Source: Microbacterium sufflavum
GTDB taxonomy: Bacteria; Actinomycetota; Actinomycetes; Actinomycetales; Microbacteriaceae
Assembly: GCF_023091155.1 (NCBI RefSeq)
Contig: NZ_JAHWXK010000001.1
Coordinates: forward strand, 434,001-498,000
Direction: 5' to 3'
Length of the DNA stretch: 64,000 nt
Below are positions 7,864 through 38,127 of this stretch, piece after piece (position 1 is the first letter of the stretch; each line of letters starts with the position of its first letter). A program made the translations under genes and the position numbers. The notes under the pieces were generated by a model. The model was not told where the DNA came from. It did no database searches and saw only the letters and a program-made list of their open reading frames with translations.

Positions 7864-8274
7864 TCAGGCGTCGAGCGCCTTGAGCAGCTCGACCGGATCC
7901 GCCTGCATGGGATGGGGACCGGCGATGTCGAGGAACACGGTCGTGATGGGGTGGGCGGAGAGGAACCGCCGCAGCCAGGCCGCGTCGTAGATGCCCACAC
8001 CGGGCGGCAGGTTGGCCGGCTTGTTCTTCGCGTCGCTGAAGAGCAGCAGCGCCAGGTCGCCCGTGTTCGGGTCGCGGTACGTCCACACCTCGCCGCCGTC
8101 GAGCGGGTTGTCGCGCGCACCGGGCTTGATGAGCGGGACGACGGTCGTGCCGTGCCGCAGGGCCAGGGCGACCGCGGCCACGTCCTGCTTCTCCAGGGCC
8201 ACCGCCAGCGCCTCGGACCGGAAGTCCTCGGGTGCGGGCTTCTTCTTGCCGGACTTCGCCTTCTTCGCAGCCAT
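7864..8274 (-). CDS. Conserved hypothetical protein, possibly SseB-like
   Basis: A 136-residue soluble protein starting with a Lys-rich tail (MAAKKAKSGKKKP). Residues 40-136 alternate short strands and helices, with GDLALLLFSDAKNKP and a C-terminal ITTVFLDIAGPHPMQ segment. This loosely resembles the SseB N-terminal fold, but I cannot confirm it. No catalytic motif is evident. TAAGCT lies 6 bases before ATG, so the gene is probably leaderless and transcribed alone. Confidence 0.7.
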   Translation of the reverse strand: MAAKKAKSGKKKPAPEDFRSEALAVALEKQDVAAVALALRHGTTVVPLIKPGARDNPLDGGEVWTYRDPNTGDLALLLFSDAKNKPANLPPGVGIYDAAWLRRFLSAHPITTVFLDIAGPHPMQADPVELLKALDA

Positions 8275-8335
8275 GTCTCCAGCTTAGGCATCGACACGAC
8301 GAGCGCGGCTCCACGGCGACCTCCGGCCGGCGCGG

Positions 8336-8482
8336 GAAAAAGATTGGGGCCCTCTCGAGTCCTCCATTGGGGACTGGGGTACTCGAGAGGGCCCTCGGAC
8401 TCTCGAGCGGCGGTGTCGAAGCGCTGGGGACGCTGTAGTTCGACGCCACTGGGGATGGCTTATGCCGCATAGGCGGAGAGTC
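8336..8482 (-). ncRNA. Putative C-rich small RNA with intrinsic terminator
   Basis: An apparently noncoding transcript of about 147 bases in the only gene-free gap over 300 bases (8275-8627). On the minus strand a first hairpin (about 8411-8446) pairs GGCGTCGAA with TTCGACACC, one mismatch, exposing a UCCCCA loop. A second hairpin has perfect 14-bp arms (8347-8360 and 8381-8394) and a 20-base loop with two CCCC runs, followed by a CAATCTTTTT tract, a classic rho-independent terminator. Another UCCCCA lies upstream of the first hairpin (near 8450). The repeated single-stranded CCCC motifs recall the actinobacterial 6C RNA class, though runs here are four C. No open reading frame with a start signal covers it. 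Confidence 0.72.
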
Positions 8483-8488
8483 ATGTCT

Positions 8489-8517
8489 ATGGTATCCCAA
8501 AGAACGACTCGTGTCAG
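8489..8517 (-). promoter_or_regulatory. Promoter of the C-rich small RNA
   Basis: On the minus strand a -35 element CTGACA (8512-8517, five of six to TTGACA) is separated by exactly 17 bases from a -10 element TACCAT (8489-8494). The predicted start is near 8482, giving an RNA that ends at the T-tract near 8337. Confidence 0.65.
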
Positions 8518-8551
8518 CACAAGAGGCCCTCCGACGCGAAGGTCGCCGCAA

Positions 8552-8588
8552 TTCGGATCGGTTGCCGCAGCAGACGAAGCAATCCGAA
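8552..8588 (-). terminator. Possible terminator after the secreted threonine/serine-rich protein gene
   Basis: An inverted repeat with arms TTCGGAT (8552-8558) and ATCCGAA (8582-8588), extended by inner TTGC/GCAA pairing with a bulge, lies 40 bases past the stop at 8628 on the minus strand. There is no T-tract, so it is only a candidate. Confidence 0.35.
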
Positions 8589-8627
8589 GCCGCACGGCCG
8601 GATCGCCCGCAAAGCCGTAGCGTGCGA

Positions 8628-9272
8628 TCAGTAGAGCAGGAACTGCGCCGTCGTGGCGCTGGGGAAGCCGCCGATCGACACGGCCACATGGTACGACGCG
8701 CCGCCACCGGGCGCCCGCTGCCGGTTCTCCTGCGCGCACGTCTCCACGCTCGACCGGGTGCGGTCCCACACCACGGGCTCCTTGCTCACCACGGTCGATC
8801 CGGCGGTGAGCGTCGCGATCATGCTGCTCGGGTTCTCCTGGCAGTCCGTCGACCGCCACCACACGTCCGCGCCGCTCGACACCGTGAACACCTGGGTGCT
8901 CGACCCCACGTCGATCGTGCAGTCCGTGGTGCCCTTGTTCGTCAGCGAGATCGACAGGCGCGGGGTGACGCCCGCCGCGTAGGTGTCGGCGTCGGTGACA
9001 GCCGTGACCTCGATGTCCTTCGCCTGGCAGGCCACGACAGCGGGCGTCTCGGAGGCGCTCGGAGTGGGCGCCGGGCTCGCGGAACCCGTGGGCGGCGGCG
9101 TCGTCTCGGTCGTCGAGGAGGACGTCGCAGCCGGGGTCGCATCGGTCGCGGCGGCCCAGGGGCGCGCGACCAGCAGCCACACCGACACCCCGATCACCGC
9201 GAGGACCAGGATCAGCCCGAGCAGCACCACCAGACGCCGACGACGGTAGACGGCGGCGGAACGACGGGGCAT
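8628..9272 (-). CDS. Membrane-anchored extracellular protein of unknown function
   Basis: A 214-residue protein with a basic N-terminus (MPRRSAAVYRRRR), one strong transmembrane segment (about residues 14-36), a Thr/Ser/Pro-rich linker (about 40-78) and a C-terminal beta-rich extracellular domain with several cysteines (CQAKD, DCTID, DCQEN, ETCAQ) likely to form disulfides. The layout suggests an anchored cell-surface protein with a DUF4232-like beta-sandwich; I do not recognise a function. TAACCT lies 6 bases before ATG, so it is probably leaderless. Confidence 0.78.
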   Translation of the reverse strand: MPRRSAAVYRRRRLVVLLGLILVLAVIGVSVWLLVARPWAAATDATPAATSSSTTETTPPPTGSASPAPTPSASETPAVVACQAKDIEVTAVTDADTYAAGVTPRLSISLTNKGTTDCTIDVGSSTQVFTVSSGADVWWRSTDCQENPSSMIATLTAGSTVVSKEPVVWDRTRSSVETCAQENRQRAPGGGASYHVAVSIGGFPSATTAQFLLY

Positions 9273-9332: not shown

Positions 9333-9833
9333 TCAGAGCACCTTGAGCATCCGGGTGTTGCCGAGCGTGTTCGGCTTGACGTGCGCCAGGTCGAGGAACT
9401 CCTCGACACCCGCGTCTCCACTGCGCAGCAGCTGCGAGTACACGTCGGGATCGACGACCTGCTCGCCGATGGGGGTGAAGCCGCGGCGGCCGAAGAAATC
9501 GACCTCGAACGTGAGGCAGAACAGGCGCGTCAGTCCGAGTGCGCGCGCGTTCTCCTCCAGGCGCTCGACGATCGCGCGACCGATGCCGTGGTGCAGCCAG
9601 TCGTCGCGCACGAGCAGGGTGCGCACCTCGCCGAGGTCCTCCCAGATCACGTGCAGGGCGCCGCAGCCGATCAGCTCGCCGTCGGCCTCCGCCACCACGA
9701 ACTCCTGCACCGCGCCGTACAGCACCGCCAGGTCTTTGCCGAGCAGGATGCGCTGCTCCACGAGCGGCTGGAGCAGGTTGCGGATGCTGACGATATCGGC
9801 GCTGCGGGCGGGCCGGACGATGTAGTCGCTCAC
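9333..9833 (-). CDS. argA: Amino-acid N-acetyltransferase (actinobacterial short ArgA)
   Basis: GNAT-fold enzyme predicted to acetylate glutamate in the first step of arginine biosynthesis. The 166 residues match the stand-alone actinobacterial type, without the amino-acid-kinase domain of classical ArgA. Visible features are the N-terminal YIVRPARSADIVSIRNLL and the acetyl-CoA loop LVRDDWLHHGIGRAIVERL. The GTG start has TAGGCT 6 bases upstream and no Shine-Dalgarno, consistent with leaderless transcription. A terminator hairpin separates it from clpC. Confidence 0.85.
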   Translation of the reverse strand: MSDYIVRPARSADIVSIRNLLQPLVEQRILLGKDLAVLYGAVQEFVVAEADGELIGCGALHVIWEDLGEVRTLLVRDDWLHHGIGRAIVERLEENARALGLTRLFCLTFEVDFFGRRGFTPIGEQVVDPDVYSQLLRSGDAGVEEFLDLAHVKPNTLGNTRMLKVL

Positions 9834-37108: not shown

Positions 37109-37110
37109 CC

Positions 37111-38127
37111 TCAGCGGTGCGCGGTGCTGTCGCGCACGAGCAGCCGGGTGGGCACGATCGCACGGCCGCCGTCCGCCGCCGGGTCCGCTCCCTCGATCGC
37201 CGCGACGAGGGCCCCCACCGCCCGCTGTGCGAGAGCGGAGAAGTCCTGGCGGATGGTGGTGAGGGGCGGCAGGTAGTCCGCGGCATCCGGCACGTCGTCG
37301 AACCCCAGCACGCTCACGTCCGCGGGCACACGGCGTCCGGACTCCGCCAGGGCCCGCAGCAGACCGAGGGCCATCTGGTCGTTCGCGCAGAACACGGCCG
37401 TCGCGGGAGCCAGCGCGGCGCCTGCCGCGAATCCCGATCGCGAGGTCCAGTCGCCGCGGACCACCGCGGGCGCCGCGATGCCGCCCGCGGCGAGCGCCTC
37501 CCGCCATCCCCGCTCGCGCTCGGCGGCGGCGAAGGAGTCGGCGGGCCCGGCGAGATGGTGCACGGTGGCGTGTCCGAGGCTCAGCAGGTGCGCCGTGGCC
37601 GCGGCCGCCCCTCCCGCGTGATCGCTGTGCACGACGATCGCCCCGGTCTCGGCGGGCGCGTCGACCACCACGAGCCGCAGACCCGGAGGCCGCGGGGCGG
37701 ACGGCACGAGCGCGGAGGCCTCGTTCAGCACGACCGCGCCGTCGACGCCCTGGTCCGCGAGCTGGGCGAACGCCGCCTCGACGCCCTCGGACGCGGTGAC
37801 CACGGTGAGGGCGTAGCCGCGTTCGGCCGCCGCCTCGGCCGTCGCCTGCAGCATGCGGGAGTTGCCGATCGTCGCGAGGGTGGTGACGACGAGGCCGATC
37901 GTGTGCGAGCGGCCCGTGCGCAGGGCTCGCGCGGCGCGGTGCGGCCGGTAGCCGAGCTCCGCCATCGCCGCCTCGACGCGGGCACGCGTGGCCGGATCGA
38001 CCCGCGGGCTGCCGTTGACGACGCGCGACACCGTCTGGCCCGAGACTCCGGCGCGCGCGGCGACCTGGGCCATGGAGACGCGGGCGTCCGGCGCGGCGGA
38101 TGCGGAGGCGGGGGTGTCTCGTGCCAC
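37111..38127 (-). CDS. LacI-family regulator of the gal operon
   Basis: A 338-residue repressor. The N-terminus has the LacI helix-turn-helix (VSMAQVAARAGVSGQTVSRV, VNGSPRVDPATRARVEAA) followed by a sugar-binding domain ending in LGFDDVPDAADYLPPLTTIR. It is divergent from galT with two TGTTNACGTNAACA-like operators between, so it is very likely the galactose repressor. GTG 38127 has GGAGG 4 bases upstream; another GTG at 38142 would add five residues. Confidence 0.9.
   Translation of the reverse strand: MARDTPASASAAPDARVSMAQVAARAGVSGQTVSRVVNGSPRVDPATRARVEAAMAELGYRPHRAARALRTGRSHTIGLVVTTLATIGNSRMLQATAEAAAERGYALTVVTASEGVEAAFAQLADQGVDGAVVLNEASALVPSAPRPPGLRLVVVDAPAETGAIVVHSDHAGGAAAATAHLLSLGHATVHHLAGPADSFAAAERERGWREALAAGGIAAPAVVRGDWTSRSGFAAGAALAPATAVFCANDQMALGLLRALAESGRRVPADVSVLGFDDVPDAADYLPPLTTIRQDFSALAQRAVGALVAAIEGADPAADGGRAIVPTRLLVRDSTAHR

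Follow-up and report, generated by a model that had tools for sequence, protein, structure and literature searches.

A structured C-rich small RNA in Microbacterium sufflavum and its sibling copies in the genus

The intergenic gap and its small RNA

A structured small RNA lies on the minus strand of an intergenic gap (8275-8627) in the window, the 64,000-nucleotide stretch of the Microbacterium sufflavum genome analysed here. The initial annotation took this gap to be the only one over 300 bases; our own rough gene caller, which may have missed genes, leaves three, the other two at 914-1559 and 37109-37554. Downstream of the RNA, on the same strand, is the gene of a conserved 136-aa protein (7864-8274), near radA and clpC, for which no Pfam or NCBIfam family was found. 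This gene has its own -10 element (TAAGCT) just before the ATG, and a -10-like TAnnCT or TAnnGT is found at that position in 77 of 80 loci, with the RNA present or absent; two of the three loci missing the pattern (L060, L111) show one by eye. Because the -10 is so close to the ATG, the mRNA is probably almost leaderless. The upstream neighbour (8628-9272, minus strand) encodes a 214-aa protein, whose relatives stand beside the copies of the RNA at this position (hereafter locus A). It appears by its look to be secreted or membrane-anchored, and yields no Pfam family and only a sub-threshold Cei match in NCBIfam (23.9 bits, cut-off 150). Between clpC and the RNA, the window also carries at 9333-9833 a GNAT protein matching the PRK07922 amino-acid N-acetyltransferase with 231.6 bits (cut-off 180).

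The RNA would be about 145 nt long (8338-8482, minus strand), with its start inferred from the -10 element and its end from the U-tract. Sequence and a promoter scan give a -35 hexamer CTGACA at 8512-8517, and conservation in 60 relatives marks a promoter core TTTGGGA-TACCAT at 8489-8501, in which the -10 element occupies 8489-8494. The initial annotation had described a promoter of CTGACA and TACCAT spaced by 17; both hexamers and the spacing stand, and the promoter lies on the minus strand (8517..8489). This is the sole promoter-like match in 7900-8900, where shuffled sequences give a mean of 0.0. The -10 element reads TACCAT in 56 of the 60 relatives (TATCAT, TACCGT, TAGGAT and TACCAC occur once each) and TTTGGGA is kept in 54. 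The -35 element is loose, with CTGACA in 22, CAGACA in 11 and other words in 27 relatives. Overall, the promoter core TTTGGGATACCAT hardly varies among the 60 loci, and the identity upstream of the -35 element is just 0.30-0.55. A scan of three genomes for TTTGGGATACCAT with up to 2 mismatches yielded 12 places, three of which are the promoter of the locus-A RNA itself. The remaining nine share no theme; at least two of them are found by eye close upstream of genes resembling GntR-type regulators, and these presumably resemble GntR-type sites.

The predicted fold has a minimum free energy of -72.1 kcal/mol compared with a shuffle mean of -43.2 (sd 3.8), corresponding to a z-score of -7.6. A long-range closing stem is formed by GACUCUC (8476-8482) and GAGAGUC (8398-8404), and an inner stem by GCGGC (8464-8468) and GCCGC (8407-8411). 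Within them, fold and alignment place hairpin A, GCCAU-CCCCA-GUGGC (8445-8459, CCCC at 8451-8454), followed by a GUCGA/UCGAC stem (8415-8444, in which 8440-8444 pairs with 8415-8419) that encloses hairpin B (8420-8434, CCCC at 8426-8429). The segments CCAUCCCCA of hairpin A and GUCCCCAGCGC of hairpin B are invariant across 61 aligned rows. The outer stem around hairpin B is unpaired in some rows and has no two-sided changes. At the 3' end, a terminator hairpin (8347-8394) is built from a perfect 14-bp stem with arms 8347-8360 and 8381-8394 and a loop CAGUCCCCAAUGG holding CCCC at 8369-8372, followed after a 5-nt spacer by U5 (8337-8341) on the minus strand. The U-tract is imperfect in many relatives, and a consensus terminator scan did not list this terminator, probably because loop and spacer exceed the limits of the scan. 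The two CCCC-loop hairpins and the terminator with its T-tract thus stand as originally annotated. The three additional exposed UCCCCA/ACCCC motifs claimed there are in part a recount: there are exactly three UCCCCA motifs in total, two in hairpins A and B and one in the terminator loop, and the one further ACCCC lies largely inside the terminator stem.

To quantify the exposure of these motifs, every second row of the alignment was folded (31 of 61 rows). Three motifs were counted in 30 of the 31 rows and four in the other one, and three TCCCCA words occurred in none of 310 shuffles of these 31 family members. The predicted mean unpaired probability of CCCC was 0.98 (lowest 0.19), against 0.59 for CCCC in the shuffles. 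A closed frame of at least 15 codons was found in 17 of 60 RNA sequences and in none of the other 43, so that no conserved peptide is apparent in the RNA.

Conservation, covariation and strand

A DNA search of 58 genomes revealed matches in 19, of which 11, including the genome of the window, are near full-length. Seven of the other eight (L012-L018) cover only part of the DNA query, and these fit the covariance model R1 (154 positions) end to end with 46-91 bits, in the same gene neighbourhood as the window copy. The eighth (G051, L019), from a genome of the same taxonomic order, matches at E 7e-4. When loci were fetched by the downstream 136-aa protein, 80 of 113 confirmed loci were kept, and in 60 of them the RNA is present upstream of the gene and carries its three UCCCC motifs; at L083 it stands further off. 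The 20 loci outside these carriers come from 14 records titled Agromyces and six titled Microbacterium; one of them (L113) has a diverged copy of 37 bits, and in the remaining 19 R1 scores no better than 14.7 bits.

R1 matches the window at 8338-8488 on the minus strand with 170.9 bits, the window locus itself being in the model. Of 149 genomes sampled from the genus, 88 gave matches; of 249 sampled across the family, a draw in which four genus members are listed, three did. Two of the three belong to the genus of the window and one is weak and partial (26.8 bits). These genome counts are lower bounds because the large searches use stricter filters, and some of the matches listed come from reading the self-complementary terminator on the opposite strand. 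No match was obtained in phages or plasmids at E up to 0.01. Rfam 15 holds no matching family: there were 0 matches in the window at gathering scores, and a permissive threshold on 7900-8900 gave three at E 3.1-7.7, far below the cut-offs. The literature on small RNAs of Microbacterium and Microbacteriaceae and on C-rich or 6C-like RNAs, as far as covered, contains no description of an RNA of this kind from Microbacterium. These results support a new family of multi-copy RNAs, observed to date in this genus, in line with the suggestion in the initial annotation that it might be a new class. Upstream of some diverged locus-A RNAs (L013-L016, L191, L193, L197, L198, L202, L208), TGAGA-N3-TTCTCA replaces TTTGGGATACCAT, and a TGTCCCC...GGGGACA-like palindrome is seen by eye in L013-L015. 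At these loci the RNA has stayed where it was, and its promoter region seems to have been swapped for another.

For the analysis of covariation, the window and 60 relatives were aligned with MAFFT and scored on the fold of the near-identical relative L037, which is the same as the fold of the window itself; 93.8% of the cells in this alignment are paired. Two-sided changes were observed in 17 of 46 pairs against a shuffle mean of 9.5, and in 91 cells against 24.1. The covariation score was 0.155, compared with 0.101 in shuffles and at most 0.061 when the partners were slid by 1-3 columns; none of 500 shuffles reached the observed value in any of the three measures. Both controls flatter the structure, because the shuffles ignore relatedness and the structure is taken from one of the aligned sequences; the claim of covariation rests on the size of the gap to the controls together with the two-sided changes. 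Most of the signal comes from the closing stem (two-sided changes in 5 of 7 pairs) and the inner stem (4 of 5), and the terminator helix contributes 7 of 19 pairs. The stems flanking the two C-rich loops say little on covariation, as they hardly vary. Folding the same 61 rows with no structure supplied gave 23 pairs, nine with two-sided changes. The copies beside the cold-shock gene csp (see below), aligned separately, have such changes in 13 of 41 pairs against 4.9 in shuffles, again exceeding every one of 500 shuffles and well clear of the slid-partner controls. The check proposed in the initial annotation, a covariance model built from relatives and examined for covariation, came out in its favour, with stems covarying above all 500 shuffles.

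The stems change and the loops hardly do. Among the paired cells, G.U outnumbers A.C by 240:39 in the locus-A alignment and by 125:3 in the csp-side copies. Since the opposite strand would swap these counts, the C-rich minus strand is indicated as the RNA. Taken together, the promoter conservation, the covariation and the strand test strongly support, at the level of sequence, the proposed C-rich small RNA, equipped with a promoter and a terminator of its own.

Sibling copies beside csp and elsewhere

R1 detects a second full-length copy in this genome (G000:C1:1125583-1125729, 60.6 bits, E 2.5e-10), which adjoins a cold-shock (csp) gene. From the genus matches we chose 20 second copies by score, length and place, a selection that is not random; in these and six copies met earlier, a csp gene is adjacent in 26 of 26. 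All 26 loci also contain a GTCCCCC-N4-GGGGGAC palindrome of variable centre between the RNA terminator and csp (L171-L190, L020, L022, L023, L025 and L027; also L159 of this genome). In this genome it reads TTGTCCCCC-AAAA-GGGGGACAA at G000:C1:1125752-1125773 (about 10752-10773 of L159), between the second RNA copy and csp, and this exact sequence occurs at one place only. The palindrome is likely an operator.

In each of the 20 chosen genomes another match above 130 bits is listed at a different place; by its score, which is in the range of locus-A copies, it is a candidate for one. Among 20 further R1 matches that were fetched, 14 have a locus-A neighbour gene and six lie elsewhere. Together with L021 and L026 the latter make eight other-site copies, six of which share neighbouring sequence and so form an additional locus with two subgroups; L195 and L209 have no such link. 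R1 covers the other copies over their full length, and the feature common to all is the architecture with (U)CCCCA in the loops, around which the stem letters change. By pattern, three motifs are present in 22 of 26 csp-side rows and two in the other four, and three motifs were found in none of 260 shuffles. The mean unpaired probability of CCCC in these rows is predicted at 0.90 (lowest 0.07) versus 0.40 in shuffles.

Relation to known RNAs and possible mode of action

The anatomy of the RNA recalls several known regulators. 6C RNAs have two hairpins with C-runs of about six in the loops. The RNA described here is likewise an actinobacterial RNA with two C-rich loops, but the loops carry four C (UCCCCA, invariant in 61 rows), and a third loop motif in the terminator and enclosing stems are added. 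In mycobacteria, the report on B11, the 6C counterpart, describes a six-G tract in the eccB4 5'UTR that could bind either C-rich loop, and repression through this region that survives mutation of either loop alone (PMC10470900). LhrC of Listeria monocytogenes is present in five copies, and its report describes three UCCC sites, two in loops and one in a single strand, with the terminator loop among the sites used; they bind a G-rich stretch ahead of lapB, with stronger binding by the two loops than by the single-stranded site (PMC4132741). Similar to LhrC, the Microbacterium RNA has several copies per genome with the same motif (two in G000), and the C-rich motif is predicted to be exposed in hairpin and terminator loops. 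It differs in that the middle site is a hairpin loop rather than a single-stranded stretch, the host is a GC-rich actinobacterium, and the four C are followed by a fixed A; judged by Rfam alone, the window has no match that would indicate a sequence relation to LhrC. The same paper lists RNAIII, RsaE, SprD and FsrA as UCCC-motif small RNAs of low-GC Gram-positive bacteria that bind targets by a C-rich seed (PMC4132741). The C-rich seed is shared with these as well, without sequence relation and in other hosts, and UGGGGA is not the common ribosome-binding word here.

The best reading, by analogy, is a trans-acting sibling small RNA working like LhrC or B11. We consider it probable that the locus encodes a dedicated minus-strand RNA of about 145 nt whose C-rich loops would serve as seeds for G-rich target RNAs, with sibling copies. 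The closing and inner stems would present the two short hairpins and the terminator hairpin would end the RNA, so that each loop offers a UCCCC. The three loops may act as interchangeable seeds pairing with UGGGGA/C in target RNAs, which is the best mechanism because the anatomy is like that of LhrC and B11; such pairing would block translation or change the stability of the target. Sister copies beside csp, and further ones in some species, would present the same motif on other stems and under other promoters, and several signals could therefore feed one target set. Of this scheme, the conserved promoter core, the structure, the strand, the conserved loops and the copies are shown here; transcription, seed pairing, targets, effect and target sharing are what we infer. 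No Hfq match was found in this genome.

Candidate target sites were sought in two ways. At ribosome-binding positions (-22 to -4) of 416 upstream regions in a 464-kb sample, with gene starts from our own unvalidated script, UGGGGA was seen 3 times against 2.5 expected and GGGGAC once against 6.7, in contrast to AAGGAG with 22 against 3.0. A generic anti-Shine-Dalgarno role is thus not supported, as the local Shine-Dalgarno word is AAGGAG and UGGGGA is not enriched. The pattern CTGGGGAY-N3-9-ATG was found 7 times in this genome versus 5 in a reversed control unmatched for composition, one of the 7 being the other strand of the RNA itself; on the same control the counts were 10 versus 7 in G021, 15 versus 5 in G034 and 20 versus 7 in G033. 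A comparison of 30 of the 52 places gave no convincing conserved target in these four genomes; recurrence between genomes was limited to the locus of the RNA itself and to one pair with a 7-codon frame. Under the pairing model, the targets would then be few, or the sites would lie elsewhere in the mRNAs.

Several other explanations have to be weighed against this trans-acting RNA. CsrB titrates CsrA, and by that model the three UCCCC loops could titrate, or be chaperoned by, a single-strand RNA-binding protein such as a cold-shock protein. Three identical loops with near-invariant neighbours would fit a protein site, and the genome carries three CSD genes, with no match to Hfq. The reading becomes more plausible because the second copy adjoins csp in every such locus examined, 26 of 26 in a chosen set. 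However, across copies it is mainly (U)CCCCA that is kept, the surrounding stem letters changing, and the window copy is not beside csp; we regard a protein decoy as unlikely. CsrB/RsmZ-type decoys repeat an identical loop motif, GGA. The repetition is shared, but the motif on the supported strand is UCCCC and GGA loops are missing there. Reading the plus strand as the RNA would supply them, with UGGGGA loops titrating CsrA, for which this genome has a gene (72.6 bits). The strand test (240:39 and 125:3) removes that decoy by favouring the C-rich strand, and promoter and U-tract are also on the minus strand, leaving the plus-strand proposal extremely improbable. The CsrA gene (G000:C1:1931864-1932016, L273) is seen by eye beside a FlhA-like flagellar export gene.

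The position of the RNA upstream of the 136-aa gene on the same strand in 60 loci would also suit a cis-acting leader or attenuator. An independent RNA is far likelier, because the gene has its own -10 before the ATG in 77 of 80 loci irrespective of the RNA, a terminator lies between the two, and other copies are beside other genes; a leader is thus very improbable. A pair of short hairpins with C-rich loops, found in an actinobacterium, would suggest a diverged member of 6C (B11), a relationship considered in the initial annotation. The covariance-model test refutes membership: even at E up to 10, RF01066 does not match 7900-8900, nor does it match the window at the gathering score or the whole genome (G000) at E up to 0.001, or 0.05 under stricter filters. 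The four-C runs, the long-range closing stem and the terminator loop motif also speak against it. Among the 149 genus genomes, 26 have an RF01066 match at E up to 0.05, two of them over the Rfam cut-off (G013, L212; G353, L211), at other places than their R1 matches; because both RNAs coexist in these genomes they are distinct, and descent from 6C has hardly any probability left. A 6C match below the cut-off (42.8 bits, unseen under stricter filters) was noticed in G011 (L032). Finally, terminator-like stems are found at further sites in the genus, which could mean only a strong terminator with unrelated hairpins and no regulatory RNA. However, 15 such sites tested (L012-L018, L020-L027) match the whole model with 46-91 bits, the upstream stems covary and the promoter core is near-invariant, so that we give this reading almost no credence either.

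Should the trans-acting RNA with its siblings hold, the genus would gain a candidate RNA regulator, in 88 of the 149 sampled genomes and with copies at different promoters, and the multi-loop C-rich design known from Listeria would have an independent case. It would also provide, in an actinobacterium for which no Hfq was found, a model in which to ask why a single short motif repeats in one RNA and among its siblings. With the covariance model and the two alignments, a new RNA family entry can be tested directly.

The csp-side copies carry in a 5' bulge GGGGA in 24 of 26 rows and GGGGT in one, the G-run being kept in 25 of 26. Its mean unpaired probability of 0.47 predicts it to be half exposed, and the predicted duplex of this G-run, which is complementary to the UCCCC loops of every sibling, with any such loop, in short pieces, has -10.4 to -10.7 kcal/mol. 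On this modelled pairing, the siblings might regulate each other, the csp-side copy combining the roles of C-loop regulator and sponge for its locus-A sister, a proposal we hold to be rather doubtful. If true, sibling crosstalk would couple the locus-A RNA to the cold-shock locus in an organism with no Hfq gene found. Two further features were noticed on the csp side: at 10825-10855 of L159, past the palindrome and before the csp gene, a hairpin has a C6 loop (GGCCCTCATCGCTCCCCCCGCGGTGAGGGCC), and in G364 the csp-side copy is closely followed by a weak 6C match (31.4 bits).
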